IMG/VR virus record: IMGVR_UViG_3300027762_000294
Location: 1 to 64,000 of that record
DNA from: a virus
DNA: 64,000 nucleotides
Direction: 5' to 3' (one strand)
The number at the start of each line of letters is the position of its first letter. The stretch's first letter is position 1. Shown one piece after another: positions 1 to 29,789 of the stretch. The position numbers and the translations under genes were made by a program. The notes below the pieces were generated by a model. That model did not search any database, was not told the DNA's origin, and worked only from the letters and a program-made list of their open reading frames with translations.

Positions 1-333
1 TTATTGTCACCTTTAGAGAACGAGGCGTTCAACCAATATTTGTTACTTTTGCACTGAAAATAAAATTTTAATCAATTCTCATCGCTATTTTTTAATCAAT
101 TCCCATTGGGAACGGTAAAGATAGAGAATACGTCAAATTGAGTATTAGTTACTAATTGAAAAACGGCGTTTTGCATACATTAACTAATACCCAATTGAGC
201 GTATTCATTAATTTTTTACCGTTCCCAATGGGAATTGATTAAAAAATAGCGATGAGAATTGATTAAAATTTTATTTTCAGTGCAAAAGTAACAAATATTG
301 GTTGAACGCCTCGTTCTCTAAAGGTGACAATAA
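1..333. repeat. Large inverted repeat (119-bp perfect arms) at the window edge
   Basis: Bases 1-119 are the exact reverse complement of 215-333. The 95 bases between them also form an imperfect palindrome: 126-150 against 182-206 match with a few differences, and a short AAAACG/CGTTTT pair lies at the centre near 166. The whole 333 bases can fold into one long hairpin. The outer boundary falls exactly on base 1, so the arm may continue outside the window. The function is unknown. Possibilities are a telomere-resolution or hairpin-end site of a linear genome, an origin, or an assembly turn-around at a molecule end. The mismatched centre argues against a simple turn-around artefact. No gene is supported between 1 and 574. 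Bases 334-510 hold only a small inverted motif near 372-392 resembling the GTTCCC/GGGAA part of the arm, then T-rich and A-rich tracts before the first promoter. Confidence 0.93.
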
Positions 334-510
334 TCCGTTTTTCGGGGTCTTTGGGATTTTTACCTGTCATACCGTTCCCTTTTGGGAATGTAATCTGCTA
401 TTCCTATGGAAAAAAACCGGCGGGGATGCCAAAAAGGAATTCATTAAGATAACGTTTGACAAATTAATCCAAAAAAAGGAAAAAAATCTATAACTTTTTT
501 TCAAAAAAAC

Positions 511-539
511 CTTGACTTCTTTCCACAACCGAGCTATAA
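511..539 (+). promoter_or_regulatory. Sigma70-like promoter, copy 1 of a repeated cassette
   Basis: TTGACT at 511-516 and TATAAT at 534-539 are separated by 17 bases. The surrounding 55 bases, including the upstream T/A tract and the transcribed leader AAACTAAACAAAGG, recur almost unchanged at 994 and 2492. It drives the left array, starting 36 bases upstream of the first gene. Confidence 0.88.
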
Positions 540-574
540 TTACATTATCAAAACTAAACAAAGGGCGGTTTAAC

Positions 575-931
575 ATGAAACAACAACACGATTTGGGCAC
601 ACAACTACTTCTCAGCCATATGTTACTCATCGAATTAAAAGCTATGAGCAACAATTCCACTGAATATGAGGGTTTGGGAGGTGTGACTGAGTTAGTGAAA
701 ATTATGACCAAGCAACCACTGCCGGAGGATTATGAGAAGTTTGTGAAGGTCCATGTAGAGCTACAGCAAATGGATTGCGCCATAGGGTTTTTACACCAGG
801 GCGATCCCTTTTTCTATGATCTGGATACCGGTTATCTAGTGATGATTATTGACAATGATGTGACTATGTCAATAACCTTCACACCTGAAGGCACCCAAGC
901 CGTTATGGAAGCCATGACCATCTCGTATTAA
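575..931 (+). CDS. Unknown small protein, array family B (118 aa)
   Basis: I do not recognise this protein. It is the first gene after a strong promoter; the ATG at 575 is chosen because the longer frame would begin inside that promoter. A ribosome site (AAGGGCGG) lies just upstream. The N-terminal half is helical and the C-terminal half has alternating strands. The motif FFYDLDTGYLVMII at about residues 85-98 is echoed in the neighbours at 2917 (FYELDSGTLFMVV), 2553 (CVYVLDLDRWILYAV) and 5123 (LFKFDLMDGCLIF). This points to a set of diverged paralogues. Position and promoter suggest an early-expressed accessory gene, which is inference only. Confidence 0.82.
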   Translation: MKQQHDLGTQLLLSHMLLIELKAMSNNSTEYEGLGGVTELVKIMTKQPLPEDYEKFVKVHVELQQMDCAIGFLHQGDPFFYDLDTGYLVMIIDNDVTMSITFTPEGTQAVMEAMTISY

Positions 932-939
932 CCTTTAAC

Positions 940-959
940 TGTGCCCTGTAAGGGGCACA
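940..959 (+). promoter_or_regulatory. Intercistronic GNRA hairpin 1
   Basis: Stem TGTGCCCT/GGGGCACA closes the tetraloop GTAA. Relative to the other copies, C is replaced by T on the left and G by A on the right, a compensatory change that supports RNA folding. No strong T-run follows, so it is not an obvious terminator. Confidence 0.75.
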
Positions 960-993
960 ATCACTGACCCCTCCAAAAAAAAGAAAAAAAACC

Positions 994-1022
994 TTGACTT
1001 CTGTCCACAACCGAGCTATAAT
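994..1022 (+). promoter_or_regulatory. Sigma70-like promoter, copy 2
   Basis: TTGACT at 994-999, 17-base spacer and TATAAT at 1017-1022. It is nearly identical to the promoters at 511 and 2492 over spacer and leader, and lies 33 bases before the gene at 1056. Confidence 0.88.
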
Positions 1023-1055
1023 TACATCATCAAAACTAAACAAAGGAAAAGTTGT

Positions 1056-1802
1056 ATGGCAATTAAGGTGTTTGAAATCTCACAACGGCGATTAAAAATC
1101 GCACTAGATCAGTATACGAAGGGAAGTAAATTACTGATCCAAGTTACTAGCAAGAATGTGTCGTTAATGGTTGACAAATACGGGATTTGTTTTGAGTATA
1201 CCGTGCCCTCTTATTATGAAGGTGAAGGTTTTTGGTTAGCGGTCTCCCAAGATACTGTTAAGCGGTTAAAATCCGAAGTTGGTAAAAACAACAAACTTGT
1301 CAAATGTTATTATGACGCTCATCCTGCCAACTCGTTGAGTTTCGTATTGTATAACGCAACGGTTGGCGTAAAAGAAACATCGATCTCAAGTCAAGCCCCA
1401 TATGACACTGAGAGATTTGAACTGTCCACTCCCGGTGCCCCTGTTAAATTGGAGTATGGTTCTCTTTGTAAAGCAGTTGAAAATGTGAAGACAGAGAACG
1501 TAACTGAAAAAACCCCCACAGTGGTTTTGCGGCTTTATCCGGATAAAACAACCCTTGGCAGAATGATTGGTGCAGAAGAAGAGTATCTGATACATGGTGA
1601 TTGTGCTGGTGACAAGTATCCGGGCTTTGTTAGATTGGGTATGCCAAACGCCCCCATCTACTCTATCCATCTTGAGCTTTCTACCCTAACTACCATACTC
1701 AAGGCTATGCAACCACTATGTCTAGTGTTTGATAATAATGTGCGGTCTAACAAGATCATCATCAACGGTATCGAAGGTTGTACCTGGTACTTACGATATT
1801 AA
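1056..1802 (+). CDS. Possible DNA sliding-clamp-like protein (248 aa)
   Basis: The protein is predicted to be rich in beta strands, and a segment near residues 178-200 (HGDCAGDKYPGF, then an amphipathic helix LSTLTTILKAM) resembles the DnaN element GE..YPDY followed by a helix. The same arrangement is clearer in the protein at 29094. If correct, it would be a processivity factor or a decoy clamp acting on the replisome. The similarity is weak by eye, and other beta-rich folds are possible. It has its own strong promoter and a ribosome site (CAAAGGAAAAG). It is separated from the next gene by a GNRA hairpin. That the reading frame is real is well supported; the function is a guess. Confidence 0.8.
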   Translation: MAIKVFEISQRRLKIALDQYTKGSKLLIQVTSKNVSLMVDKYGICFEYTVPSYYEGEGFWLAVSQDTVKRLKSEVGKNNKLVKCYYDAHPANSLSFVLYNATVGVKETSISSQAPYDTERFELSTPGAPVKLEYGSLCKAVENVKTENVTEKTPTVVLRLYPDKTTLGRMIGAEEEYLIHGDCAGDKYPGFVRLGMPNAPIYSIHLELSTLTTILKAMQPLCLVFDNNVRSNKIIINGIEGCTWYLRY

Positions 1803-1808
1803 CATCAC

Positions 1809-1826
1809 GCGCCCTGCAAGGGGCGC
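1809..1826 (+). promoter_or_regulatory. Intercistronic GNRA hairpin 2
   Basis: Stem GCGCCCT/GGGGCGC closes loop GCAA. It is followed by TTTATC and then the leader of the next gene. Confidence 0.75.
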
Positions 1827-1857
1827 TTTATCAACCCAAAGAAAGAGGAATTGATGT

Positions 1858-2421
1858 ATGTCTAACACTTTATTTTATACACCCCATACCCTTGACGACA
1901 AAGGAAACCTTTTAGTCCACGCTGTGAAAACAGAATGTGGTTATGTAATTACGAAAAAGAATCCCGCAAACGACTACCCGGGTTATATAGAAGAGGTAGC
2001 TCTAGAATTGCCGTTGCCAGAACAAATACTAACCTCGTTTGATCTTGGGACTCTCAGACTGGGACTTTTAGATTTATGCGTAGTAACGCATTATCCCCGC
2101 TACATAGAGCGGGATCTTCTTACTCAATATCAGAACGAGGTTTTGAACTTTCTGATTCAACAGGTTCAAACCTTAGGTTTAGATTTTAGTGCTCACATGC
2201 CCTTGAGAGAGCTCCAATGTTTTCTATACCGGGTCCTTGTGAAATCGGATATGACAATTGACGAGTTTATTGATCACGTGTTGGGTTATATATCTCAATC
2301 GCAATTACGCATTTCTCTTTTGCCAACTAAAACGTCAGCCGAATCGACAGAAGTTGAAATGTCGCTTTTTGAATATAGACTCAAACTTATGCGAATCATA
2401 CACGCGGTGGTTAATGGTTAG
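1858..2421 (+). CDS. Unknown protein, array family A (187 aa)
   Basis: I do not recognise the family. It shares a layout with the proteins at 3340 and 4494. All three have an N-terminal pattern with aromatic residues and P-x-T (here FYTPHT at about 6-11), a central YPxY, and a C-terminal SLFEYxLxLM helix (here residues 169-178) or its equivalent. The product looks soluble and mainly helical in its second half. The start ATG follows AAGAGGAATTGATGT. It is part of the left array, downstream of the clamp-like gene. Role unknown. Confidence 0.82.
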   Translation: MSNTLFYTPHTLDDKGNLLVHAVKTECGYVITKKNPANDYPGYIEEVALELPLPEQILTSFDLGTLRLGLLDLCVVTHYPRYIERDLLTQYQNEVLNFLIQQVQTLGLDFSAHMPLRELQCFLYRVLVKSDMTIDEFIDHVLGYISQSQLRISLLPTKTSAESTEVEMSLFEYRLKLMRIIHAVVNG

Positions 2422-2433
2422 TCCATAACAGGT

Positions 2434-2451
2434 GCGCCCTGAAAGGGGCGC
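2434..2451 (+). promoter_or_regulatory. Intercistronic GNRA hairpin 3
   Basis: Stem GCGCCCT/GGGGCGC with loop GAAA, 13 bases after the stop of the preceding gene and 41 bases before the next promoter. Confidence 0.75.
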
Positions 2452-2491
2452 TAGAAAGGAAAACACTCTACAACTTTTTTTTCAAAGACCC

Positions 2492-2520
2492 TTGACTTCT
2501 TTCCATAACCTGGCTATAAT
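2492..2520 (+). promoter_or_regulatory. Sigma70-like promoter, copy 3
   Basis: TTGACT at 2492-2497, 17-base spacer and TATAAT at 2515-2520. The spacer and leader differ from copies 1 and 2 at only a few positions. It drives the second half of the left array. Confidence 0.88.
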
Positions 2521-2552
2521 TACATTATACAAACTGAACAAAGGAGTAATAA

Positions 2553-2864
2553 ATGAGCAACACGTATGAATTGGCTAGTAAAGCCATGAATGACTTGATC
2601 ACCATGACGTTGATCGACCCCGAAACTTTTGTTAAACATTTAGATGCCGCCGCTGATAATGCCGCTTCTGGCTTGGTGGATTGTGACTTCATATGGGGTT
2701 TAAAAAACGCGGTATTCTTTAAATACCAAGAATGCGTGTATGTACTTGATTTAGATCGTTGGATTTTGTATGCTGTTATTGATGACGGTTTTATCTTGAG
2801 TAAGGAGATCCCAGAAGAGGGAATAACGGGCGTTAATGACGAGTTAGAATTACAGTCCTATTAA
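2553..2864 (+). CDS. Unknown small protein, array family B (103 aa)
   Basis: Not recognised. It is an acidic small protein with an N-terminal helical half and a C-terminal strand pair around VYVLDLDRWILYAVIDDG. This matches the same region of the proteins at 575, 2917 and 5123. The start is set by GGAG eight bases before the ATG, directly downstream of promoter copy 3. The next gene follows after a GNRA hairpin, so the genes from 2553 to 5458 probably form one transcript. Function unknown; the family resemblance is visual. Confidence 0.8.
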   Translation: MSNTYELASKAMNDLITMTLIDPETFVKHLDAAADNAASGLVDCDFIWGLKNAVFFKYQECVYVLDLDRWILYAVIDDGFILSKEIPEEGITGVNDELELQSY

Positions 2865-2870
2865 TCAACC

Positions 2871-2888
2871 GCGCCCTGCAAGGGGCGC
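2871..2888 (+). promoter_or_regulatory. Intercistronic GNRA hairpin 4
   Basis: GCGCCCT/GGGGCGC with loop GCAA. It is followed by a conserved leader segment (CAATCCAAAGAAAGGA) that supplies the next gene's ribosome site. The same leader follows hairpin 5. Confidence 0.75.
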
Positions 2889-2916
2889 TCAATCAATCCA
2901 AAGAAAGGAAAAAAAT

Positions 2917-3285
2917 ATGTTGTATACAGATCACTTGTTACCAGATAATAACCAAGGCTTGCTCAATATGGCGTTCTTTGCCGGGCTGTTGTTAGTAGAT
3001 CAGACGAACAGTGATGAGGGGCGTAATAGTTTTCTTAAAATGATGCATGTCCCCATTTACGGCGGTGGCTATAGTGAGGAAGAGGTAACCCATTGGTCAA
3101 ACCACTTGCATGATGAGTTCCCGTTGTTAGACCGCGGGAATTTCTTAATCACAACAACCGTGAAGTTCCCAACGTTTTACGAACTGGATTCTGGGACGTT
3201 GTTTATGGTTGTCATGCCCGGCGTCATGCTAACATTCTTAATCGACCCTGAACCAGCCAAGTTAATTCGTGATAGCCTCAAATAA
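2917..3285 (+). CDS. Unknown small protein, array family B (122 aa)
   Basis: Not recognised. The C-terminal part, FYELDSGTLFMVVMPGVMLTF, aligns by eye with residues 85-105 of the protein at 575 (FYDLDTGYLVMIIDNDVTMSI), including a trailing helix. It is therefore a paralogue of that gene. The N-terminal half contains a hydrophobic helix (MAFFAGLLLV) that is too short and isolated to call a membrane segment. The ribosome site AAAGGA sits in the repeated leader sequence. Role unknown. Confidence 0.82.
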   Translation: MLYTDHLLPDNNQGLLNMAFFAGLLLVDQTNSDEGRNSFLKMMHVPIYGGGYSEEEVTHWSNHLHDEFPLLDRGNFLITTTVKFPTFYELDSGTLFMVVMPGVMLTFLIDPEPAKLIRDSLK

Positions 3286-3291
3286 TCAACC

Positions 3292-3309
3292 GCGCCCTGC
3301 AAGGGGCGC
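3292..3309 (+). promoter_or_regulatory. Intercistronic GNRA hairpin 5
   Basis: GCGCCCT/GGGGCGC with loop GCAA, followed by the same leader as hairpin 4. Confidence 0.75.
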
Positions 3310-3339
3310 TCAATCAATCCAAAGAAAGGAGATAAATGT

Positions 3340-4008
3340 ATGAGCGACAATCGTTATTGGTATAGACCCAACACTATATATGATAATGAAGGAGAAACTT
3401 ACCGGTTGTTATTCAGTGAATTTCATTCAGGTGATTATTATACCACTACAATGTTGAACAAAAACGGTATTACTGGCAAATTTAGCGATCATTCGTTTAC
3501 AACAGTACCCTTTGAAAACATCTTGTACCCTGAACATGTATTGACCCCGTATGAGCTTAGTGCCTTAGCAACTGATGATGATTTATGGCTTTCCCCTTAC
3601 CCAGGATACCTACAACCGAGAGATGTTAATCCTGAATATATGTACTTACTGTTTGACCTTACAAGAATACTTTCTGACTCAACAATAGAATTGCCTATCA
3701 ATGATGTTGACCGTCTGTTGAAGTTTTTACAAACCACTTCCCCGTTTCGTGATAACTTAGGGGTGCATAATTTTGTTATAGAATTGTTGTTTAACCAACT
3801 ACGCAACACTAAGATTGAAAGTTATCGTACTGACTTCCCATCTAATGTATGGGCAACGACGAACACTGGTAGTATGTCACTGTTTGATTACATCTTAGTT
3901 TTGATGAATGCCTTACGCCCACGGCTTTATGGGTTATCAACAATTAGCGAACGCCCCAAAGAACGCCATATTGAGCCTTTAAACAAACAGCGTGATTTCA
4001 AACGTTAA
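3340..4008 (+). CDS. Unknown protein, array family A (222 aa)
   Basis: Not recognised. It is the longest member of the three-gene family with 1858 and 4494. It shows WYRPNT near the start, LTPYELSAL in the middle, YPGYLQ, and the C-terminal MSLFDYILVLMNALRP, which parallels MSLFEYRLKLMRIIHA in the 1858 protein. The tail is basic and charged (residues 203-222). It is predicted soluble and helical. The start is preceded by AAAGGAGAT. It lies in the same transcript as its neighbours and is separated from them by hairpins. Function unknown. Confidence 0.83.
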   Translation: MSDNRYWYRPNTIYDNEGETYRLLFSEFHSGDYYTTTMLNKNGITGKFSDHSFTTVPFENILYPEHVLTPYELSALATDDDLWLSPYPGYLQPRDVNPEYMYLLFDLTRILSDSTIELPINDVDRLLKFLQTTSPFRDNLGVHNFVIELLFNQLRNTKIESYRTDFPSNVWATTNTGSMSLFDYILVLMNALRPRLYGLSTISERPKERHIEPLNKQRDFKR

Positions 4009-4014
4009 TCAACC

Positions 4015-4032
4015 GCGCCCTGAAAGGGGCGC
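4015..4032 (+). promoter_or_regulatory. Intercistronic GNRA hairpin 6
   Basis: GCGCCCT/GGGGCGC with loop GAAA. AAAGAAAGGAG follows at once, so the hairpin abuts the ribosome site of the gene at 4051. Confidence 0.75.
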
Positions 4033-4050
4033 AAAGAAAGGAGAGAATAA

Positions 4051-4413
4051 ATGTCATTACCTGAAGTAAATCCTATTATGGTATATGGACTTCGTACTTT
4101 ATTGCACAATTTTCCTAATTGTGTTTCAGGGGTGGATACATCAACACCTGATTATTTTGAAAAAGCCTTGTCTGTAATTGATGAAAACAACAAACAGTTT
4201 GTTAATGGGAGTTGGTATATTTCGATAGGAGGTATTTTAGACCTTATTTATAAATTGGGTCATAGTGGTCTCGTAGATTTTTTAAAAGACAAAGGTATCC
4301 ACCCGTATGGCAACCCACGGTTTAAGATGGAGTTGGTCTTTAATACATTAACATTAACTGCGCCCTGCAATCCAATAAAGAGAGGGAATATGATTGAAGA
4401 AGACCGTAAATGA
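4051..4413 (+). CDS. BRO-N-like small protein with a read-through tail (120 aa)
   Basis: Residues about 30-90 (ALSVIDENN, then GSWYISIGGILDLIY, then LVDFLKDKG) match the N-terminal domain of the protein at 17600 (ALNKIDSEN, WYVSVEGVIELA). That layout is typical of phage antirepressor BRO-N or MSV199-type domains, which are DNA-binding in known families. The nuclease part seen at 17600 and 28222 is absent. The last 15 or so residues are encoded by what is elsewhere an untranslated hairpin and leader. A deletion of the hairpin's right arm near 4370 seems to have extended the frame to the TGA at 4411. The stop overlaps a tiny downstream frame. Confidence 0.72.
   Translation: MSLPEVNPIMVYGLRTLLHNFPNCVSGVDTSTPDYFEKALSVIDENNKQFVNGSWYISIGGILDLIYKLGHSGLVDFLKDKGIHPYGNPRFKMELVFNTLTLTAPCNPIKRGNMIEEDRK
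4360..4370 (+). promoter_or_regulatory. Broken copy of the GNRA hairpin
   Basis: GCGCCCTGCAA is the left arm and loop of the hairpin found between the other genes. The right arm is missing and the sequence jumps straight to the usual leader (TCCAATAAAGAGAGG). The remnant is translated as part of the gene at 4051. Confidence 0.65.
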
Positions 4414-4493
4414 AGTCTTTCTTAAAACAGAAAGAACGTTTGTTTACCCCGGGTCAAAATTTGAAAGACATGCAGAATTGGGAGGCAGAATAA
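4410..4493 (+). CDS. Possible 27-residue micro-protein
   Basis: The ATG at 4410 overlaps the stop of the preceding gene (ATGA), and its own TAA touches the ATG of the gene at 4494. The frame therefore fits exactly into a translationally coupled chain. The product is charged and begins MKSFLKQKER. No homologue is recognised. The region upstream of 4494 may simply be leader sequence, so confidence is limited. Confidence 0.4.
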   Translation: MKSFLKQKERLFTPGQNLKDMQNWEAE

Positions 4494-5066
4494 ATGGCTC
4501 ATCTTTTATATAAACCGTACACGTTTTTTAAGGGTGTAAGACTTGTTGAGGCGGTTGGTAATATGGTGACTGCAATTCTAGGAACGGGATGCAAGGTCAA
4601 GTTTTATTGCCCAGTCATACCATGCTCGAATTCCTTCATGAATATTGGAGAGGTCATGGCATTACGTGATTTCACCCGTGATTTAGAGTCAGAGGTTTAT
4701 CCTGATTATATGTGTTATTTTCCATTAGCACATAAGTACCATTTTTTAGAGGTCGGTATAAAAAGAATCATGAGTGATCCCCTGCAGTATCCTATAGAAT
4801 TAAGTGAGTTACTGTGTTTTGAGGACATACTGTTCAGACTTATTTATGATGGGGGTGATACTCCTGATGAATTGGCTGGGCGGATTCTCAGTGAACTCGA
4901 GGGTAACATCATAATGGATTATCTTACTGATGATTTTGTGCCCATACCCATCAACACTTCTGTGTTCAACATGTTGTCGTCTATGATACAAGTCACATAC
5001 CCACGGGCAAACCCGCGGTATAAGAATCGTGCTCTAAATGGGGCATGGGACATAGGACAGAAGTAA
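4494..5066 (+). CDS. Unknown protein, array family A (190 aa)
   Basis: Not recognised. It is the third, most diverged member of the family with 1858 and 3340. It has YKPYT near the start, a central VYPDYMCYFPL, and a C-terminal helix ending in a TYPRANPRYK-type basic tail. The start ATG is preceded by GGGAGGCAGAATAA, a strong ribosome site, and touches the stop of the micro-frame at 4410. It is followed by a GNRA hairpin. Function unknown. Confidence 0.82.
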   Translation: MAHLLYKPYTFFKGVRLVEAVGNMVTAILGTGCKVKFYCPVIPCSNSFMNIGEVMALRDFTRDLESEVYPDYMCYFPLAHKYHFLEVGIKRIMSDPLQYPIELSELLCFEDILFRLIYDGGDTPDELAGRILSELEGNIIMDYLTDDFVPIPINTSVFNMLSSMIQVTYPRANPRYKNRALNGAWDIGQK

Positions 5067-5074
5067 AATCAACC

Positions 5075-5092
5075 GCGCCCTGAAAGGGGCGC
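5075..5092 (+). promoter_or_regulatory. Intercistronic GNRA hairpin 7
   Basis: GCGCCCT/GGGGCGC with loop GAAA, followed by TTTATTAATTCAAG and the ribosome site of the next gene. Confidence 0.75.
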
Positions 5093-5122
5093 TTTATTAA
5101 TTCAAGAATGAGGAAAGAAGTT

Positions 5123-5458
5123 ATGTGCTTATCTGTTGCAAAAGAATTACGGTTGTTGATGGTCACTAAGTTTACATTACATGAAGCGGCTGGCATTATC
5201 CTAAACAATCGAGTTGAGTATGACGAGTCTTACTCGTGGCTCTTGACTGAATGCTCGCCCCGTAAGAACTGCATTCTGTTTGGGTATAAAACTTGCCTAT
5301 TCAAATTTGATCTGATGGATGGCTGCTTGATTTTTGAAGGGGATGAACCCGGGTCCACTATGCAGTTATATCTGGACTCAGACCCTCAGATACACCAGCA
5401 GTATCTAGATAGATTTATCCCTTATTTAACCTGGCTTCCTTGGCTACGCGATCTATAA
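5123..5458 (+). CDS. Unknown small protein, array family B (111 aa)
   Basis: Not recognised. The ATG at 5123 is preferred to the one at 5108 because GAGGAAAG lies at normal spacing before it. Four cysteines are spread through the chain. The segment CLFKFDLMDGCLIFEGDE corresponds in position to the FxxLDxG strand pair of the proteins at 575, 2553 and 2917, which suggests a fourth family member. It is the last gene of the left array, closed by a rho-independent terminator 28 bases downstream. Confidence 0.8.
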   Translation: MCLSVAKELRLLMVTKFTLHEAAGIILNNRVEYDESYSWLLTECSPRKNCILFGYKTCLFKFDLMDGCLIFEGDEPGSTMQLYLDSDPQIHQQYLDRFIPYLTWLPWLRDL

Positions 5459-5485
5459 CGCTGTAAAGTAAAGTAACCTAACCAC

Positions 5486-5517
5486 AACCCGGCAAGTGTT
5501 TACGCCGGGTTTTTTTT
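5486..5517 (+). terminator. Rho-independent terminator of the left array
   Basis: Stem AACCCGGC/GCCGGGTT with a ten-base loop runs directly into eight T residues. It ends the rightward transcript that begins at 511-2520. Confidence 0.92.
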
Positions 5518-5587
5518 GCCTGGCTATATGGCATGGGGTATATACGATCGTTCAACCTTGGGGCTCCTAGGGCAATCCAAAGGGAAG

Positions 5588-6215
5588 GAAAGGATCTTCT
5601 TTACCGGGCTAAGTTCAATTACATCTTGTAAGTGTATACTTGTGTTTAGAATTTACCGCCATATAGAGTATACATACAAGTTTATTATGAAAATTATTCC
5701 TATCAATCAAGGGCTTACGTGATTTCAGATCACTTAGACTAAATTTTCCTATTATCTCTCTTCTTCAAATTTAAAACTTCTTAAGTTATTGATTATTCAC
5801 ACTTATCTCTCTCAATCTTTTTCGACACTTTGACAGTTTCTTATGACGTATTAAATACCATCCCCTACCCTATACTACGTTAAAGCAATTCAAGGAAATG
5901 AAAGGATCTTCTTTACCGGGCTAAGTTCAATTACATCTTGTAAGTGTATACTTGTGTTTAGAATTTACCGCCATATAGAGTATACATACAAGTTTATTAT
6001 GAAAATTATTCCTATCAATCAAGGGCTTACGTGATTTCAGATCACTTAGACTAAATTTTCCTATTATCTCTCTTCTTCAAATTTAAAACTTCTTAAGTTA
6101 TTGATTATTCACACTTATCTCTCTCAATCTTTTTCGACACTTTGACAGTTTCTTATGACGTATTAAATACCATCCCCTACCCTATACTACGTTAAAGCAA
6201 TTCAAGGAAATGAAA
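5588..6215. repeat. Two exact 312-bp tandem copies
   Basis: Bases from 5588 repeat from 5900 with a period of 312. I found no mismatch by eye up to 6215, where the copies diverge. Each copy contains an imperfect inverted repeat (CTTGTAAGTGTATAC against GTATACATACAAG) and a short hairpin GTGAT/ATCAC. The left edge of copy 1 (CAATCCAAAGGGAAGGAAAGG) resembles the internal junction (CAATTCAAGGAAATGAAAGG). Recombination between such motifs could have made the duplication. Confidence 0.95.
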
Positions 6216-6566
6216 TAAGATGTTACTACCCTTAAATATATATATATTTTAAATCTTAAACTTTTTTAAAAAATATAATATAAGTGATCTTAAACTATGT
6301 AAGCTATTAATATATAAGAAGAATTTTTATAATAAATGGGTATTATACGTCGTATGAAAGATACTTCAATGTAGTAAAATATGGCGGGGTTTGACGTGTT
6401 TCAAAGTAAACTTCCAATGTACCTTAAACTGCGCCGTTGACGCGATCTTAAGTTTTCCTAAATAAACAAGCCACTTTCCTCTATAACTTGAATACCCACA
6501 CTAATAATAAATGTTAATCTTTTTTGACCCTTTGGAAGTGGGGTTATTGCTGGCGATATATTGGGG

Positions 6567-6718
6567 TTTTGGTTACGTTTTTCCCCTGTTTGTGAAGATT
6601 CATCTTCCAATGTCTAAAAAAGTCTGTATCGTTATAAATCAATAACTTAAGCGCGGTCAAAAGTGATACTTTGATTGATGTTTTAGTTACGTTTTTCCCT
6701 GTTTGTGAAGATTATCTT
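6567..6718. repeat. Direct repeat pair of about 38 bp
   Basis: Bases 6567-6609 and 6681-6718 share GTTACGTTTTTCCC, CTGTTTGTGAAGATT and a similar right flank, differing by one base insertion and a few substitutions. They lie 114 bases apart inside the gene-free region. Confidence 0.85.
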
Positions 6719-6993
6719 TGGCTGCGCTTCTGCCCTAATCAACCTTTCTTCTTTTATTGGATTGATTTTGCCCTACAACGTCCTAATCGCCCCACCCTTA
6801 AACGATTACATCCCTAGGCATAATGATCCGGCTTAACTGAGATCTCTTTACCACGGGGCTATTACACCCCTTCTTTATGATTTGAGGGGGCGTGGGCATT
6901 TTTAGAATTTTTTTGATACAGGACTAAGGCAGGCGTATTCACGCATTTGAAGGAGGGGGGGGGTGTAGTATCGTTCCCATCGCTCGTTTGGAG

Positions 6994-7078
6994 GGTAAGT
7001 CGCCCTCATTCCAATTCCCACTACGTAGTAGGAGGTTAACATTACGATAGTGGTAAGTCGCCCTCATTCCAATTCCCA
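6994..7078. repeat. 27-bp direct repeat pair
   Basis: Bases 6994-7020 and 7052-7078 are identical, with a period of 58. The first copy can pair internally (GAGGG with CCCTC). The second has lost that pairing through its left flank. They lie about 160-240 bases upstream of the next gene and could be operator-like sites. Confidence 0.88.
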
Positions 7079-7235
7079 TTCCATAATGAAATTGCCCTAC
7101 GAAAGTACCGTTGGTCGGACCTTTGGCTACACTCAGGGGAATACCGCTGGTATTCTAAAGGGGAGTGGTTTATACTATTATTAATGAGGGGAAGAAAACA
7201 TAAACTAACATTTACTTAAACAGGAGACATAAAGC

Positions 7236-12626: not shown

Positions 12627-13292
12627 ATGAGAATTAAATTACCCGAAACCGTGTTTTCACTTTTGAACTATGTGACGGCGTTGAGAATTAACAACGAGAC
12701 TAAGCAATTAATCAACACTCATCGGTGGGGATTACAGGATTACTTCTATTTTAAGAGAATAGGACCGTTGATACCAGCACCTGTGAGTCTCAGTTTAACT
12801 ATCCATATGCCAAACGATCGTTATAAAAGTGTCAACCCGTTTATTTTTTCAAAAACTTTGATTGACGTTTTGCAAGGTCGTCTTTACCGAAACGATAAAG
12901 ATGTTTTTCACTTAGAAGTTCACATAGATGACACAACTGAGAACGAACTATATGTTGACATTGAGGGAAGTCCTTTCGTTCCTAAGAGTCATCGTTTGGA
13001 TGGGTTAGATGTATTGCCGTTGTCACACACAGTAAATAAGTTGTATAAAGTGTCTGGAGGAGAACACCCTCATATTTATCGAGATCGGACGGTGTCTTAT
13101 GGGAAAATTGATCTCCCGTTTTCAGACACAATTTATTTTTTATTCCCTGATACAGCTCGCCCAGATATAGATAGCGTTCCTTATGTTTTTTGTGGGGACT
13201 GGAAAAACTATAACTTGCGTCATGTCTATGCTACTAAAGATTCTCAAGTTCCTCAGCATACGTTTTGTTATGGACTGAATAACCCATGTTGA
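12627..13292 (+). CDS. RusA-like protein, possible Holliday-junction resolvase (221 aa)
   Basis: Residues about 65-110 (RYKSVNPFIFSKTLIDVLQG, then YRNDKDVFHLEVHID) resemble the RusA core, where a conserved D-N-x-x-K helix is followed by DAL-x-G and a ND/DD turn before a strand. In RusA this dimeric enzyme cuts four-way DNA junctions. Here the first catalytic aspartate positions look altered (VNPF in place of DLDN), so activity is doubtful. The chain is longer than RusA (about 120-140), with an unassigned C-terminal half. It overlaps the next gene by seven bases. Alternative: an unrelated alpha/beta protein. Confidence 0.5.
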   Translation: MRIKLPETVFSLLNYVTALRINNETKQLINTHRWGLQDYFYFKRIGPLIPAPVSLSLTIHMPNDRYKSVNPFIFSKTLIDVLQGRLYRNDKDVFHLEVHIDDTTENELYVDIEGSPFVPKSHRLDGLDVLPLSHTVNKLYKVSGGEHPHIYRDRTVSYGKIDLPFSDTIYFLFPDTARPDIDSVPYVFCGDWKNYNLRHVYATKDSQVPQHTFCYGLNNPC

Positions 13293-15600: not shown

Positions 15601-15630
15601 TTGACTTTTGATTTAAAGCTATGATACAAT
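15601..15630 (+). promoter_or_regulatory. Sigma70-like promoter for the envelope cassette
   Basis: TTGACT at 15601-15606 and TACAAT at 15625-15630 with an 18-base spacer. It lies 33 bases before the L,D-transpeptidase ATG and directly after the methylase stop. Confidence 0.82.
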
Positions 15631-15662
15631 GGTTTCATCTTAACAAACGAGGTAACAACAAA

Positions 15663-18519: not shown

Positions 18520-18873
18520 ATGTTAGAATTAGTGTTGCTTATTGCATTGCACGTTCCTGCCAACACGATATACGATACCCAAAATAACACGAATGCGCAA
18601 AATATGATCGCAATTCGTCGTATGATTGGAAAACTACACAGTTGTTTGAAGAATCCCAAATGTCCATATTTGCATCAAGCTAGATTGTTCAACATTTTTG
18701 ACGGTAACCCCACACCGACGTCATGGCGTGTGTTTGTGGCTTCTGCAACTAGGGGAGCCCCTAACAATTTGGTAAAGGCAATACGCAAATGTGATGAGTT
18801 AAAAGCCGAATATACCGGTTGTCTCAATGGAGGTGTGCAGCAATGCGACACATTGCAAAAAGGGCTCTACTAA
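18520..18873 (+). CDS. Possible secreted cysteine-containing protein (117 aa)
   Basis: Not recognised. The first 14 residues (MLELVLLIALHVPA) resemble a short signal peptide, although without a basic start. The mature part holds five cysteines (CLKNPKC, KCDEL, TGC, QQC), which suggests disulfides in the periplasm. AGGAGG precedes the ATG. The gene overlaps the next one by 31 bases in another frame. It is part of the envelope cassette and could be a partner of the lipoprotein peptidase, which is inference. Confidence 0.72.
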   Translation: MLELVLLIALHVPANTIYDTQNNTNAQNMIAIRRMIGKLHSCLKNPKCPYLHQARLFNIFDGNPTPTSWRVFVASATRGAPNNLVKAIRKCDELKAEYTGCLNGGVQQCDTLQKGLY

Positions 18874-20416: not shown

Positions 20417-23400
20417 ATGAACTTTGAGATTAAAGTAAAAGGGGTGGGATCAAAGATAATCATTGATTCTACCAACCCAAAATGGAACCTCCTTAGTAGT
20501 CCCAAGTATACCCACCCAGCATACACATATAGACTTTTTAAGGCAAACGGGGAAAGCACATGCGATTTGTCGGTATTATTAACCTCTAATGACAAACTCT
20601 TGTTATACCGTTATTCTAAAGGCTTTGAAAGCAGTGTGTATGAAGGTGTTCATCCGGGTTTATATGCCGAGGTAGAAGCCAGAGTAGGATCTGTGCCCAC
20701 TATTAAGGTTGGGGAAACAATTTCAAAACCCGTAGGGGAGCCCTCCCATAACCATCAACTATTACATTGCCCAAACTCGATCCCTGAATCGGTGGTAGCG
20801 GATTTTAAGAAAAGAGGGGTTCCCTTAAGGTTGTTGGTTGAACTAGGGTATTATCTGATTGAGAAACGGCTTTATACACCTGCCTATATTATCGAAACGG
20901 GGGAGCTTTGTCCTTTTGTTTGTAGAGATCCTGGAAACGATAAACATCACAAACGTACTTTAAAAGGGAGTAAATTTGCGTCCTTTGCCTGGATAAAGTC
21001 TTCTGTTGAGGAGTGCGAAACCTTAATCGTTTGTGAGGGAATAATGACGGCTCTAGCAATTGCTAATTATTTTCCCAACCAACATGTAGTTTCAGTAGGA
21101 GCCCATAACAATTACCCTAACCTTATTAACGATACCGCTTTAAGTAGATATTTTCCTGAGGTAACCACGGTAGTCATAGTTCCCGATGTGGATTCTAATC
21201 ATCATTCAACGGATAGTATTTCTAAACTCACTATAAATTCAGAAAAAGTGAGACTGGCTATTTTTCCTATGAACCCGTCGACTTTGAAAGGGGATTTTGG
21301 TGATTTGAAAAGTAAGACTGCCCAGAGGGTTGCAGCTGCCTTGTTTGAGTTTATTGCCTTTGCATCAGGGAAAACTTTAGCAAACCGTCTTTACTATGAA
21401 CGTAAAGTCACACCTTGCACTTTGAATAACAACCCCGGGGATTTACCCATGATTCAAGGGAGCAAAACCACTTCGTTTTTAGAGCCCATGGGGTTTTTAA
21501 ATAATTTTTTAAGGTTAGGTCCCAAGTCATTCTATTGCGTTCCTCATCAATTAGTAGTGAGCTTAGAGCAACTAACTTCTTTAATTGAATCACCAGCAAC
21601 AATGATTCCTTATACCAGTGCATTAACCGATCTTATGGGAAACGAGCCTAAGGGTAGTGCCGTGTATAAAGAAGCACAAGCAGTTCTAGATAAAATCAAA
21701 AGATGGTCTACTGACACACTAATAAGTAACATACCTAATCATCCATTGCTTAGACTGGATATGTACGGTTTTGCATTTAAGAATGGGTACTTTATGCATG
21801 ATGGTAGCAATCATTGGTTTGTTACAGATAACAAAACACGTCCAGCTGCCGTGAATTTACGATACCCACCCATTCACTTAGAGTACGTTCCTGAAGCTAT
21901 CGACGACATAGCTAAACAAGAAGTTGAGTTTGTTTTGGGTCACTGTATGTGTGGAGGGAGTCGTAAGTCAAAAGAATCTGTGGCGCGTATGTTGAGGTCA
22001 TTGTTTTTTGGCAATGAAGACCATATAGCAACCCATGCAAGATCTATATATGTTGTTGAAGGCACGGGCGGGATTGGTAAATCGCAGCTAGGGTTATTAA
22101 TAAAATCAATGGACCCTTATGCGGGTGACATTAACCCCATGAGTGTGGCTTCTAAAAACAAGTCTCAATTTCATTTCACACATGAGGATGCGTTAAAATC
22201 AATAAAGATTTTAGATGATGCACCTCCTATATTTGGGGATGTTAGCTTTCTCAAAACCAGTGCTACCGGTGGTGAAATGCGAACAGAAGGCAAATTCCAG
22301 AATCCGGTATATGTAGAAACATGTGCCTCAATGGTATTTGTTTATAATGAAACTCCTAAATTTGACAATGACACTGGATTAGAGCGTCGGTTGAGATATG
22401 TAACATTAGAGGGAAAACGTAACAATTCGATTAAAGTAGATACTTTGGGAACGCTGTCTAAACACTTACCAGCCGTTTTCAACTGGATTTGCGAAAACAT
22501 CAACACCGTGGTGTCTGATGAGGATTTTTATCGCAGCACCAAAACAGAAGTTCCCGCTGATGTTATGGCGTTTGCAGAAGCCGTATTTACACCGTCATTT
22601 AATTCCAATCCGGCACTATCAACTTCTGAACTCATGTTTTTCAAACGAGTTTTCATTCAGGACGAGAACGAATGTAAAAAATTAAAGCCTAAGGAAAGGA
22701 CAACACTTTGGCAAAATACCAATCGCAAACAAGAACCTCAATATTCTCTATTCGACGGCTATAAGCGAACCTTAGGGTTGAAGAATAATATATCGCACAG
22801 TCAATTTGAAGATAAATTACGAATTGCTCTGTCGTATAGACAAGTACAACAACAGTTTTTGGGAGTTGAACCCACGCAGTCCCTGTATAATTACAGGGAA
22901 TTGTTTTTCACTGTAAACTCCAAAACTCAATATGTGCGAATGAGATTAGAGCAAATTCATGAAAACCCAGATGACCAGGATCCTGTAACACCACCTCCTG
23001 AAAAACAGAATAAGGATATCGTTCCTATAAATCAAGTGAGTCCCGTCCCACAAAAACCTGTTATTGATGGGTATTTCCAGGGAGAGGACAGTTTCTTAGA
23101 TATAGTTTGGCACCTTCAGAATTTTAAAGAGTGGGAGAGATCTGAAGATTTACTTTGGATTGTGTATAATCCAAACAAGGACAAAGAATTTGAAGGATTT
23201 TTAAAGACTAACTATCACGGGGATGAATTAACCAACTTACTTCGGTTGTTGAGAATGTATAGAGAGCCTCTTGTTGCTGTAAAATCAAACAACTTCCTCT
23301 CACCTGAATTACATACTGCTGTGTTGGATGACTTTGAATTCGCAACCCTCACGGATATGTTTCCTGAAAAATTATCTGAATTGAGTGATTTGAAAGATAA

Positions 23401-24589
23401 GGTCTTAAAAGCCAATCTCTTGTATGACCGCTGTTATGCACACTCGGATGTTAGTATTTTGAGTTTAGCCAATGACGCTGATAAAGCCGCAGCCCGGGAA
23501 TTATCGAATTACATAACACCCCCACATAAGAGAGCAAAGTTTATCCCTTTCTTGGATAGCCTTAAGTTAGATGTGTCCCCCACTTTTGAGGAGTTGCCAA
23601 CTGATGATGAGCATATGACGGTTTTGAAATTATATGCCCCATATGTGCCCAACACGGAAGAATATCTAATATCCCAAGGTCGTAAAGTTGATAATTTGGC
23701 ACGCCAACGGATCGACGATGTTGAGGGGGTAGTTTGTTTAAAGCCAACCGGAGAATCTCGTATTAACTTTGATGAAGTTCCTACACGGGTCACAAAGGGA
23801 CTTACCGGAGTTGCGCCGAATAGAGCAATTCATGGGATAATTGAGGATTGTATTCTCCCTCAACCTAAAGATATTACATTGATGTATCTTAGTGGTGAAT
23901 ACCCAACTGATAAAAATGCATATCCTGAAATTCCAGGTAATTGCCCTAATCCTTCTTCAACTCTATACATGCGCGGACCTCGCCCTATTGGAGATATTTG
24001 TGAAGCTGTTGGAGATGAATATCAACCCGAAAAAAGTGACCGGTTTTTTGATCCTATAAAGGAGCACGTTCCTTATATGAAAGCCGCTTATTTAGAAGCT
24101 AAGACTGTAACCAATACTATTGAAAATCCAGGTAAGTCGGCGATTGCTAAAATGGCAATTAGTGAGACAGCTTGTTATCACGGGTTAAGTTGGATGCATC
24201 ATAACGACCGACTTCGTGAGTTCATGATTTCATTGGCTGCCCCCTTCATCACTGCTCGTGAGGCATATAATCGTGGTGAATATGATCACCCGTTTCTTGT
24301 GGATTATGTGTATCCTTATGGTGAATTAACTGACAGTTTAGCCGAAGGGTTATTACAAAAGGAAGGGGAAGAATCTGTAGGGCAACTTATGGATATTTTG
24401 ACTGGATTTAACCAAGCCCAAGCCATGGCAAATAAGTTAGAATCAGAACCCCAGCGGTTTGAAAAAGTGGTAAGCGATCTTAAAGCTAAGGATTATTTTT
24501 GGAAACGTGCCAATTTCATATCTGGAAAAGGTAGACGCTTCAGAATCATCAACCATGTTAAGTATCTCGAAGGAGAACAAAATAAATGA
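20417..24589 (+). CDS. Primase-helicase: TOPRIM plus SF3 helicase (1,390 aa)
   Basis: This protein should unwind DNA and prime replication. The TOPRIM domain is at about 200-265, with E207 (IVCEGIMTAL) and D257/D259 (VIVPDVDSN). The SF3 ATPase is at about 500-660, with Walker A GTGGIGKS (K555), Walker B D600/D601 (KILDDAPP), and a sensor region NETPKFDNDTG followed by ERRLRY. The pairing is like D5-type and PriCT phage helicase-primases. Residues about 860-1390 follow a proline-rich linker (TPPPEKQNK) and match nothing I know. The total is much longer than common relatives (700-900), so an extra module is fused. The stop overlaps the next gene by four bases. Confidence 0.88.
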   Translation: MNFEIKVKGVGSKIIIDSTNPKWNLLSSPKYTHPAYTYRLFKANGESTCDLSVLLTSNDKLLLYRYSKGFESSVYEGVHPGLYAEVEARVGSVPTIKVGETISKPVGEPSHNHQLLHCPNSIPESVVADFKKRGVPLRLLVELGYYLIEKRLYTPAYIIETGELCPFVCRDPGNDKHHKRTLKGSKFASFAWIKSSVEECETLIVCEGIMTALAIANYFPNQHVVSVGAHNNYPNLINDTALSRYFPEVTTVVIVPDVDSNHHSTDSISKLTINSEKVRLAIFPMNPSTLKGDFGDLKSKTAQRVAAALFEFIAFASGKTLANRLYYERKVTPCTLNNNPGDLPMIQGSKTTSFLEPMGFLNNFLRLGPKSFYCVPHQLVVSLEQLTSLIESPATMIPYTSALTDLMGNEPKGSAVYKEAQAVLDKIKRWSTDTLISNIPNHPLLRLDMYGFAFKNGYFMHDGSNHWFVTDNKTRPAAVNLRYPPIHLEYVPEAIDDIAKQEVEFVLGHCMCGGSRKSKESVARMLRSLFFGNEDHIATHARSIYVVEGTGGIGKSQLGLLIKSMDPYAGDINPMSVASKNKSQFHFTHEDALKSIKILDDAPPIFGDVSFLKTSATGGEMRTEGKFQNPVYVETCASMVFVYNETPKFDNDTGLERRLRYVTLEGKRNNSIKVDTLGTLSKHLPAVFNWICENINTVVSDEDFYRSTKTEVPADVMAFAEAVFTPSFNSNPALSTSELMFFKRVFIQDENECKKLKPKERTTLWQNTNRKQEPQYSLFDGYKRTLGLKNNISHSQFEDKLRIALSYRQVQQQFLGVEPTQSLYNYRELFFTVNSKTQYVRMRLEQIHENPDDQDPVTPPPEKQNKDIVPINQVSPVPQKPVIDGYFQGEDSFLDIVWHLQNFKEWERSEDLLWIVYNPNKDKEFEGFLKTNYHGDELTNLLRLLRMYREPLVAVKSNNFLSPELHTAVLDDFEFATLTDMFPEKLSELSDLKDKVLKANLLYDRCYAHSDVSILSLANDADKAAARELSNYITPPHKRAKFIPFLDSLKLDVSPTFEELPTDDEHMTVLKLYAPYVPNTEEYLISQGRKVDNLARQRIDDVEGVVCLKPTGESRINFDEVPTRVTKGLTGVAPNRAIHGIIEDCILPQPKDITLMYLSGEYPTDKNAYPEIPGNCPNPSSTLYMRGPRPIGDICEAVGDEYQPEKSDRFFDPIKEHVPYMKAAYLEAKTVTNTIENPGKSAIAKMAISETACYHGLSWMHHNDRLREFMISLAAPFITAREAYNRGEYDHPFLVDYVYPYGELTDSLAEGLLQKEGEESVGQLMDILTGFNQAQAMANKLESEPQRFEKVVSDLKAKDYFWKRANFISGKGRRFRIINHVKYLEGEQNK

Positions 24590-26873: not shown

Positions 26874-28208
26874 ATGGGAGGTTGCGTGAAATACAATCCT
26901 GTAAAATATGGAGAATATATTGCTAAAAAATTCGGAGACACACTAGACCCTTGGCAACGTGAAGAGTTGACTCGTTTTGGTAGAGTTTTAAACGGGGAGA
27001 TACCTAACTTGAGAATCTCGTTGCCCGCAGCGCATGGGGTAGGAAAAACGTTTTTAGCAAGCCTAATAATTACTTACGCCTTATCGGTTGTCCCACGTAT
27101 AGCGGGAGTTGCCACATCTAATACCCGGCAACAATTAATCACTAAATTAGTGAGAGAAATTCAGAAAGTCATTCCTTATAATCCCGGTTTAAAATGCACC
27201 ACTTACGGAGTTAGGAGGATTACAAAACCGTCTAACGTAGTCTCTTTTGTGACGTTTGATCCCACAATGCCCGAGAGTTTTCAGGGGCTACATGAAGAAT
27301 TTGTTCTTATTGTTATAGACGAGGCATCTGGATTACCGGATGATTTGTTTAGGGTATTAGAAGGCGCATTATCCGGGGGAAGATTTTATTACTTGTTGTT
27401 GGGTAATCCCACTAAATTAGGGACGTATTTTCATAAAACAGTGACTGATTACAAACATATATGGCTAAGTCGTCCTATTTCTTGTTTTGATTCTCACAGA
27501 GTGTCTCCCTCATATTCTGAAAATATGGATACGCTGTATGGAAAAGACTCGGATATGTATAGAGTTAGGGTGTTGGGGTTGTTTCCAAAAATCTCAGGGG
27601 GTGATAGTAACCTTTTCAAAACTTCAGATTTTAAAAACGTGTTTGAAGAAAAGTTTGAAGGTTGTCTAGACGGTGAACGTAGCTTAGGAATGGACGTAGG
27701 CGCGGGGGGTGATAAAACGGTATTGGTTGATGTTACAGTCAATAAAGAATTAAAAATAATTTCGATAAATTCCATAAACCCTTACGGAGAGGCGGATTTA
27801 GTTAAAGTGGCAAGATTGCCTATTGATTATATGCGGGATATTGATTTTTTTGACTTTGATTTGAATATGGATAGCACAGGATTAGGGGCAGGGGTTTCTC
27901 ATATGTTAGCAGAAATAATACGCAACAACAACCTATCGACTCGTTTAAACCCGTTTAACTTTTCATCAAAACCAATATACTTAGACGACCCCTATAATGC
28001 TAAAAATATTCGCACGATGTTATACACTAACTTGAAAAAACTACTTGTCCTAGGGTGGCGGATTTATGGAATGCCAGAAGATTTGGTGAAGTTGCTCTTG
28101 ACAATTGTGTTTAGATCTGATACACTGTATTTAGAAATTGTGAATAAGTCTAAAGACCAAAATCATGACGCTTTAGACGCCTTACTGTTAAGTATAATAT
28201 TTGTTTGA
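26874..28208 (+). CDS. Terminase large subunit (ATPase and nuclease)
   Basis: The packaging motor pumps DNA into proheads and cuts concatemers. The ATPase shows Walker A AHGVGKTFLAS at about 54-64 and Walker B LIVIDEASG at about 144-152, with a coupling motif near GNPTKLG. The nuclease has the first acidic site MDVGAGGDKTV at about 280-290, a middle DLNMDSTGLG, and the final acidic DALDALLL near 434. The length (444 aa) is typical. A GTG at 26886 with GGGAGG four bases upstream is an alternative start that would remove four residues. No small-subunit gene is adjacent. The gene lies with replication genes and not with head genes. Confidence 0.9.
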   Translation: MGGCVKYNPVKYGEYIAKKFGDTLDPWQREELTRFGRVLNGEIPNLRISLPAAHGVGKTFLASLIITYALSVVPRIAGVATSNTRQQLITKLVREIQKVIPYNPGLKCTTYGVRRITKPSNVVSFVTFDPTMPESFQGLHEEFVLIVIDEASGLPDDLFRVLEGALSGGRFYYLLLGNPTKLGTYFHKTVTDYKHIWLSRPISCFDSHRVSPSYSENMDTLYGKDSDMYRVRVLGLFPKISGGDSNLFKTSDFKNVFEEKFEGCLDGERSLGMDVGAGGDKTVLVDVTVNKELKIISINSINPYGEADLVKVARLPIDYMRDIDFFDFDLNMDSTGLGAGVSHMLAEIIRNNNLSTRLNPFNFSSKPIYLDDPYNAKNIRTMLYTNLKKLLVLGWRIYGMPEDLVKLLLTIVFRSDTLYLEIVNKSKDQNHDALDALLLSIIFV

Positions 28209-28221
28209 TTAGGTGATTAAT

Positions 28222-29097
28222 GTGAGTATAATCGAGTTTTTTAGATCCGAGGGGCTACCCACTAAAAATGGGTGTGTTAAATGGACGTCATTACATCAAT
28301 ACTTCGGATTTGCATCAAAGAAGGCAGCGAACAAACCCCACGTGGCAGACATACCATCCCGGTATGGAATTAACCGAGAAAACGTCATTACCTTCTCGAA
28401 TGACAAAGGGCATTGGATAACTGAGCACGGGATCGCCGAACTTTGTTATAGGTCAAGAAACAAAACGGCAGTTTTACTTTGGGAAAACTATTTCGACAAA
28501 GGAAACAAAAAGTTAAATTTAGCTTTTGAGGAATTGTGTAATGCAGGGGTTAACACTCAAGGTCATTTGTTGAGGGCATTAGACGTGCAATCATTCTTTA
28601 GGATTCGCAATAATCCCACTTACGATTTGACTCAATTAGGAATACCCTACGTTTTGGTTAAAGATGGGATACACCCTAACAATTTACCTGCCACTTATTT
28701 TGCCTTGGATTATTTGCCCAGATATTTGGGAGCGCGGCGTAACAAGTTAGTGTATGACTTTGTCCAAAACTACGAGTTGTCGACTACAATAATGCCTATT
28801 GAAGTTGCTATTATATCTGAGTTAGAACGGGAGTTTCCTGATCTATGCTTTCAAAGGCAATACCGGATTGGTAAGTATCGGGTAGACGCTGTAATTTTAC
28901 AGGAGTCTATTCCAGTTATTGCTATCGAAATTGATGAATATCAACATAAGCGAACGAGAAGCAGTGAGTATGATAAATTGCGTGAAAATTACATCATCAC
29001 GGCATATCCGGATCTGGTTATTTTGAGAATAGACACAACTGCCAAAGAGTTCTCTTTGGCACCGTACTTCAACATCATACAGGAGCTTTGCAAATGA
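28222..29097 (+). CDS. BRO/MSV199-like protein with PD-(D/E)XK (DUF559-like) nuclease domain
   Basis: The N-terminal part (SLHQYFGFASKKAANKP, then HWITEHGIAELCYRS) resembles viral BRO-N or MSV199 DNA-binding domains. The C-terminal 90 residues (FQRQYRIGKYRVDAVI, VIAIEIDEYQHK) show the PD-(D/E)XK core, with D222 and E236-x-D238 followed by a QH motif as in DUF559/VSR-like nucleases. It may be a regulator with DNA-cleaving ability, or a homing-type nuclease. The GTG at 28222 is preferred over 28213 because TAGGTG sits eight bases before it. It lies just after the terminase and overlaps the clamp-like gene by four bases. A diverged relative lies at 17600. Confidence 0.75.
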   Translation: MSIIEFFRSEGLPTKNGCVKWTSLHQYFGFASKKAANKPHVADIPSRYGINRENVITFSNDKGHWITEHGIAELCYRSRNKTAVLLWENYFDKGNKKLNLAFEELCNAGVNTQGHLLRALDVQSFFRIRNNPTYDLTQLGIPYVLVKDGIHPNNLPATYFALDYLPRYLGARRNKLVYDFVQNYELSTTIMPIEVAIISELEREFPDLCFQRQYRIGKYRVDAVILQESIPVIAIEIDEYQHKRTRSSEYDKLRENYIITAYPDLVILRIDTTAKEFSLAPYFNIIQELCK

Positions 29098-29789
29098 CAA
29101 CCCTAACATTTACCCCAGTTTTTCTTCACAAGTTGTTGCATCAACATCGGTACAGTGCTAAAGAGAATGGTGTGTTGTTCAAATTGGAGGACCATGTATT
29201 GCAAGTAGTGTCTACCAATAACCGACTTTTGACAGTTACAAAACTCACCATGCCTGAAATTGACACTACGTTAAACGCAACCATTCATAACCGTGGAGTG
29301 ATGTTTATCAAAGGGTATCTGCGTAAGCTAAAAGGCTTGGTTTCCTTATCGTTTTCTGAGAGTTATGTCGATTTGAAGCAAGGCGAATCTCAAATCGACA
29401 GAAATTATTTGGTCGGGGAAACATATCCCGATTATACAGCGGTAATTCAAAAGGAGGTAGGATACCAGATTTGGGTTAGATATTCCTCTTTCAAGGATGC
29501 CGTTCAAAGTCAAGAAAATGAGCTGATTTTGAAAGAGTACCAACACCGTCTTTTGATCAATCAACATTCAATGTCCATTTACGACAGTCGATATGCTGAG
29601 GGTAATGCTGTTAAATTGTCAACGGCACCAATCCCCCTAGACACCGATTTATTAATGGGGGCTGTACTTTCCCTAAATGCTTTGCCCAACAAACATTTGA
29701 TTTTGTCCTTTTATGAGGATAGTATAAACGTAGGGCTTGAATTAGAAGGACGCCCTGAAACTAAGGTTATAATAGCCGCCAACCATTAA
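29094..29789 (+). CDS. DNA sliding-clamp-like protein (DnaN fold), 231 aa
   Basis: Sliding clamps ring the DNA and hold the polymerase. Features like DnaN: NGVLFKLEDHVLQVVSTNNR, near residues 21-40, resembles the G-x-L-x-L-x-A-T-D-x-x-R strand pair, and NYLVGETYPDYTAVI matches the conserved 'GE-YPDY' strand. A C-terminal NALPNKHLILSFYED fits the last domain. At 231 residues it has two of the three bacterial clamp domains, so a trimer, as for T4 gp45, would be needed to close a ring. The ATG at 29094 is favoured over the TTG at 29088 because GGAG lies eight bases before it. A possible relative is at 1056. Confidence 0.65.
   Translation: MTTLTFTPVFLHKLLHQHRYSAKENGVLFKLEDHVLQVVSTNNRLLTVTKLTMPEIDTTLNATIHNRGVMFIKGYLRKLKGLVSLSFSESYVDLKQGESQIDRNYLVGETYPDYTAVIQKEVGYQIWVRYSSFKDAVQSQENELILKEYQHRLLINQHSMSIYDSRYAEGNAVKLSTAPIPLDTDLLMGAVLSLNALPNKHLILSFYEDSINVGLELEGRPETKVIIAANH

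Follow-up and report, generated by a model that had tools for sequence, protein, structure and literature searches.

A tailed phage genome with long terminal inverted repeats and probable incompletely paired hairpin ends

Gene content and layout of the genome

The window analysed here, a stretch of 64,000 nt, covers positions 1 to 64,000 of the 75,468-bp IMG/VR record IMGVR_UViG_3300027762_000294. Judged by its gene content the virus is a tailed phage of a bacterium, because it carries a terminase large subunit and an HK97-type major capsid protein, which place it in Caudoviricetes, together with genes for an endolysin, a lytic transglycosylase and an L,D-transpeptidase. The genes for DNA replication and packaging that matter for what follows are listed here, and the replication set also includes a ribonucleotide reductase and a thymidylate synthase match.

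20417..24589, + strand: Toprim and P4/D5-type SF3 primase-helicase, 1390 aa
25064..26824, + strand: family B DNA polymerase, 586 aa, with no room for TPR1/TPR2 (weak DNA_pol_B_2 match)
26874..28208, + strand: terminase large subunit
29088..29789, + strand: sliding-clamp (DnaN-like) protein

Genes point inward from both ends (window 1-29800 and 29900-64000) and meet near 29.9 kb, where the GC skew flips sign. Close together in the early-side gene block lie genes for an L,D-transpeptidase (YkuD), a lytic transglycosylase and an M48-type metallopeptidase (15621-17341 and 18819-19433); a YkuD enzyme is unusual phage cargo. About one third of the genome is taken up by a single ORF of 7,744 aa (29910-53144, - strand), which has as its sole Pfam match a transglycosylase SLT domain in the C-terminal half and possibly encodes a giant tail or ejected protein. 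Two neighbouring genes (60472-61980, - strand, and L003:2077-4572, - strand) both match the minor-tail family phrog_290 and, from this shared match, are likely to be an internal duplication.

A near-palindrome tips both terminal inverted repeats

The two ends of the record are formed by a terminal inverted repeat (TIR) that is exact over 7,167 bp, and comparison of the two record ends revealed that each copy is tipped by a 333-bp near-palindrome. The features of the left end are the following.

1..7167, + strand: TIR, left copy; the right copy is record 68302-75468, beyond the window, with 0 mismatches
1..119, no strand: outer arm of the near-palindrome, 100% complementary to 215-333; in a hairpin end it would be the far strand of the duplex at the terminus
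120..214, no strand: imperfect centre and predicted hairpin tip, with ~33 pairs, mismatches and bulges, G+C 29%
215..333, no strand: inner arm, pairing with 1-119
100..112, + strand: TTCCCATTGGGAA element adjoining the mispaired tip, a candidate recognition site; together with 222-234 the sole such sites in the window (0.11 expected)
222..234, + strand: second strand or copy of the TTCCCATTGGGAA element; if the end is a hairpin, the same duplex site as 100-112
370..388, + strand: related element TACCGTTCCCTTTTGGGAA, further in; its motif is absent elsewhere in the window
512..931, + strand: first TIR ORF; further ORFs start at 1056, 1858, 2553, 2917, 3340, 4051, 4494 and 5108
523..543, 1005-1025 and 2503-2523, + strand: promoter-like block (TTGACT...TATAAT) before TIR genes, in near-identical copies
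5572..6215, no strand: 312-bp unit repeated in tandem, 2.1 copies (98%), in the non-coding inner TIR

The near-palindrome occupies bases 1-333 of the record, at the edge of the window, and consists of two perfect 119-bp arms separated by 95 nt. Within the inner part, 117-165 and 167-215 are 73% complementary (ungapped). The 333 nt, taken as a single strand of DNA, have a folding energy of -156 kcal/mol, compared with -28 +/- 3.6 in shuffles; for the centre alone (120-214) the value is -16.7 compared with -5.3 +/- 1.9, the lowest of 300 shuffles reaching -12.0. The imperfect palindrome in the centre is far beyond chance. Either strand of the tip, which has an A+T content of 71%, gives a near-complete hairpin, with mismatches that differ between the strands. 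No other perfect palindrome with arms >10 bp was found in the 75,468-bp record. A sequence-only reading of this DNA had described a 333-bp near-palindrome with perfect 119-bp arms and an imperfect centre, and both the arm comparison and the folding bear this description out.

The same reading had proposed a search for the palindrome at the other end, where it is indeed present, in inverted orientation and 100% identical over 333 bp; compared as a direct copy, the two ends are 91% identical. The palindrome thus tips both record ends, rather than lying in the middle of a continuous genome with the ends far away.

The TIR ORFs, from 512 through the series ending at 5108, are small and match no known family. 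The promoter-like blocks suggest, from their sequence, strong early transcription inward from both ends. Closer to the tip, a search of the window found that the elements of the form TTCCC-N3/4-GGGAA are telomere-specific and adjoin the tip, which makes them candidate recognition sites.

Relatives of the phage

Relatives covering the tip were sought with the arm, tip-motif and promoter patterns, which had no match in viral contigs, and a protein search with the TIR genes also yielded none. Searches with the capsid, primase and terminase recovered near-identical fragments only. For the polymerase, no relatives were found in genome contigs, and an alignment-based scan yielded only ~23% identical polymerases from unrelated phages. 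INPHARED held no close relative, all matches being <60% identical or absent. Dinoroseobacter phage R5C was considered as a relative and rejected: it has only the capsid in common with the present phage, and has PolA and a different gene plan. In a 98.8% identical strain (L005, sample 3300035670), 908 bp corresponding to 59574-60481 are missing, and the contigs of the IMG/VR assembly 3300009009 also break at the edge of this segment.

A separate assembly breaks at the edge of the inverted repeat

In 3300009009 the same phage is represented by two fragments, one matching 16368-60604 and the other 60482-68424, at an identity of 100% or close to it. Their overlap measures exactly 123 bp, which sets the graph k of that assembly at 123. 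The second fragment stops after running exactly 123 bp, one k-mer, into the TIR from its edge at 68302 (68302-68424), as expected of a de Bruijn graph where two flanks share a repeat. In addition, a resemblance between the left and right sequences can still be recognised, gaps included, over ~29 bp beyond the TIR edge, which looks like an old repeat that has been kept identical up to the boundary and not like a copy made by the assembler. The break point and the decayed similarity past the edge argue that the inverted repeat is real; the 3300009009 assembly may share reads with the present one, and its fragment tests the right TIR edge only.

These observations bear on the view that the inverted, palindromic-looking ends are an assembly or amplification artefact, produced by a fold-back chimera or an inverted path through the graph. 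Inverted chimeras are a common product of amplified libraries, and arms of exactly 119 are what a unitig from a k=119 graph would show. An artefact is nevertheless unlikely, given that the separate assembly breaks at the TIR edge to the base, that similarity extends in decayed form past it and that the genes flanking the TIR differ between the two sides. A fold-back chimera would, moreover, not leave an evolved 95-nt imperfect-hairpin centre.

Graph calculations show how the arm length is to be read. With k=119, the tip unitig equals record 1-333 exactly, for a closed molecule and for one with its end at base 1 alike, while with k >119 a stop at base 1 arises only if there is an open end there. 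The 119-bp arm length may reflect only the assembler's k, and base 1 need carry no meaning. Since the record stops at base 1, 119 is the length that the record displays, not a natural limit.

The same calculations are relevant to open linear ends, where the DNA would stop at base 1, the 333-bp fold-back palindrome would correspond to a parvovirus-like extended form, and rolling-hairpin copying would follow a nick at 333/334. Any k >119 would require molecules that stop at base 1 to explain the dead end, and the same base is the stop at both record ends. A graph with k=119, however, yields the identical stop for closed ends, and no HUH or Rep-type nickase was seen among the ORFs scanned in general domain searches. 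We regard open ends as unlikely.

The record shows one orientation of the centre per end. Yet another arrangement would be circular or concatemeric DNA in which the palindrome joins the TIRs head to head and is never a hairpin end. The local sequence would be identical in that case (reverse-complemented TIR, centre, TIR). A single fixed junction in a circle, however, predicts centres that point the same way at the two record ends, and those of the record are opposite; this argument is weak, since phasing of the centre is beyond the assembler. Instability is also expected of a circle with a 14-kb inverted repeat, and we consider such a junction quite improbable.

Replication proteins and searches for end-resolving enzymes

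The spacing of the polymerase motifs is 49 residues between A and B and 50 between B and C, as in the polymerases of PWc, BREN6 and cr131, compared with 134 and 71 in phi29. This spacing leaves no room for TPR1/TPR2, so protein priming is unlikely. A protein-primed linear genome of the phi29/PRD1 kind, with a terminal protein at the long inverted repeats, would agree with the inverted terminal repeats and with a 586-aa family B polymerase that has a weak DNA_pol_B_2 match. It is very improbable in view of the motif spacing and of the clamp and primase-helicase that accompany the polymerase, and it would not predict a palindromic tip.

Long palindromes had led the sequence-only reading to mention the hairpin telomeres of N15-like phages. 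A protelomerase-made telomere of this type is the sole kind of hairpin telomere described in tailed phages (PMC10612081), but it hardly comes into consideration here. Neither the ResT/TelK catalytic domain (PF16684) nor a tyrosine recombinase (PF00589) was matched in six frames of the record, with the controls detected. Furthermore, the centre is 73% complementary (ungapped), whereas telRL is a short, essentially perfect palindrome, and the present phage has two TIRs in place of a cos genome with a single internal telRL site. The N15-like proposal was therefore dropped.

Searches for other enzymes gave no match to RuvC (PF02075) or Pox_A22 (PF04848) in six frames of the record, and the domains of Endo VII and T7 endonuclease I were likewise searched for and not found. 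Two proteins are unproven resolvase candidates on the basis of their domain matches.

12627..13292, + strand: 221-aa protein with a very weak RusA (Holliday-junction resolvase) match (13.7 bits, cut-off 22.8)
28213..29097, + strand: 294-aa protein with a C-terminal DUF559/MTES_1575 PD-(D/E)XK-type nuclease domain (22.2 bits, cut-off 20.6)

On inspection, the 221-aa protein shows no evident catalytic Asp pair of the RusA kind. The gene for the DUF559-type protein adjoins the terminase gene. AlphaFold models of the two candidate nucleases had mean pLDDT values of 41 and 32 and were too poor for use.

Hairpin telomeres as the preferred explanation

Inverted terminal repeats stand at both ends, as in NCLDV/poxvirus-type telomeres, and, at the level of sequence, an incompletely paired hairpin tip is joined to both TIR strands. 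We think it probable that the record represents the linear chromosome of a tailed phage, with TIRs of 7,167 bp and incompletely paired hairpin ends, as in poxviruses, asfarviruses and kaumoebavirus. The hairpin telomere already considered in the sequence-only reading gains support from the same palindrome at both ends and from its setting in a genome that is linear and carries long inverted repeats at its termini; this reading is based on one record. By contrast, the ongoing arm correction that had been proposed alongside it is unnecessary: in a hairpin the arms form both strands of a single duplex end and so pair by definition, and mispairing is confined to the tip.

The palindrome, the TIRs, the tip fold and the gene content are observed; from these we infer covalently closed ends and a route through concatemers and a resolvase. 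Each end would turn back as a hairpin with incomplete pairing over its final ~47 base pairs. Sequence running through the turn would consist of the reverse complement of the TIR, the centre and the TIR, and an assembly would display the 333-bp near-palindrome and then stop. The phage primase-helicase, family B polymerase and clamp would copy around the hairpins and generate inverted concatemers, in which each junction would be a duplex copy of the palindrome with the potential to extrude a cruciform. Cutting of this cruciform by a junction or structure-specific nuclease would then form mispaired hairpins again, and exchange during resolution, or gene conversion, would keep the two TIRs identical.

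That this phage has poxvirus-like mismatched hairpin telomeres, that a junction nuclease and no protelomerase resolves its concatemers and that such ends arose in both tailed phages and NCLDVs is a fuller proposal, to which we give roughly even chances. Since domains of RuvC, Pox_A22, Endo VII and T7 endonuclease I were not found, the ends are classed as working like poxvirus-type telomeres and not as a member of that group. Counting against hairpin ends are the exact correspondence of the record end to the output of a k=119 graph, the lack of resolvase domains in the searches described above and the fact that none of the relatives found extends over the tip. In addition, we know of no hairpin-ended virion DNA in tailed phages, and the present phage has a terminase.

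Comparison with known systems

The layout matches that of Kaumoebavirus LCC10, whose assembly contained a TIR contig at twice the depth and, attached by each of its ends to the 1,032-bp TIR, an incompletely paired hairpin contig of 102 bp (PMC7909422). Its ends, of the asfarvirus type, resemble those described here in that a linear genome has exact TIRs and an incompletely base-paired tip hairpin on both TIR strands, and in both cases similar behaviour of the assembly revealed the ends (PMC7909422). Kaumoebavirus LCC10 differs in being a eukaryotic NCLDV with flip/flop seen in reads and a TIR of 1.0 kb (PMC7909422), whereas here the TIR measures 7.2 kb, the host is a bacterium and the structural genes are those of a tailed phage. 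Poxviruses (vaccinia) likewise have mismatched hairpin tips within long TIRs containing both genes and tandem repeats, and they share a D5-type primase-helicase and a family B polymerase with the present phage (PMC8956199). Their tip is ~93% A+T (PMC8956199) compared with 71% here, the Pox_A22/RuvC-type resolvase was not found here, and no concatemer resolution site is known in the present phage.

Among viruses of prokaryotes, the rudiviruses SIRV1/2 have TIRs as well as hairpin ends, and a junction resolvase has been proposed to cut these ends out where genome copies join (PMC3157427). They are archaeal and rod-shaped (PMC3157427), in contrast to a tailed phage with an HK97-type capsid and a terminase in which Hjr was not found. 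N15, PY54 and phiKO2 are tailed phages with hairpin-ended linear DNA (PMC10612081, PMC12624138). They differ in having a protelomerase and a short palindromic telRL, and in these phages the hairpin form is that of the prophage while virion DNA has cos ends (PMC10612081, PMC12624138); in the present phage no protelomerase was found, the tip is mismatched and the TIRs are long. A partial search of the literature found no tailed phage with the present layout.

Significance

Among the large DNA viruses of eukaryotes, mismatched hairpins are known within long TIRs that bear genes, while the telomere phages described so far have, to our knowledge, a protelomerase and perfect palindromes. The hairpin explanation accounts for a contig-end signature generated by assemblers, which is searchable in other viromes. 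If it is true, the present phage would represent a second way for hairpin ends to arise in bacteria and would raise the questions of how closed ends can be packaged by a terminase and what keeps the host SbcCD off them. Such a phage could also offer a possible bacterial model for the resolution of poxvirus-type telomeres.
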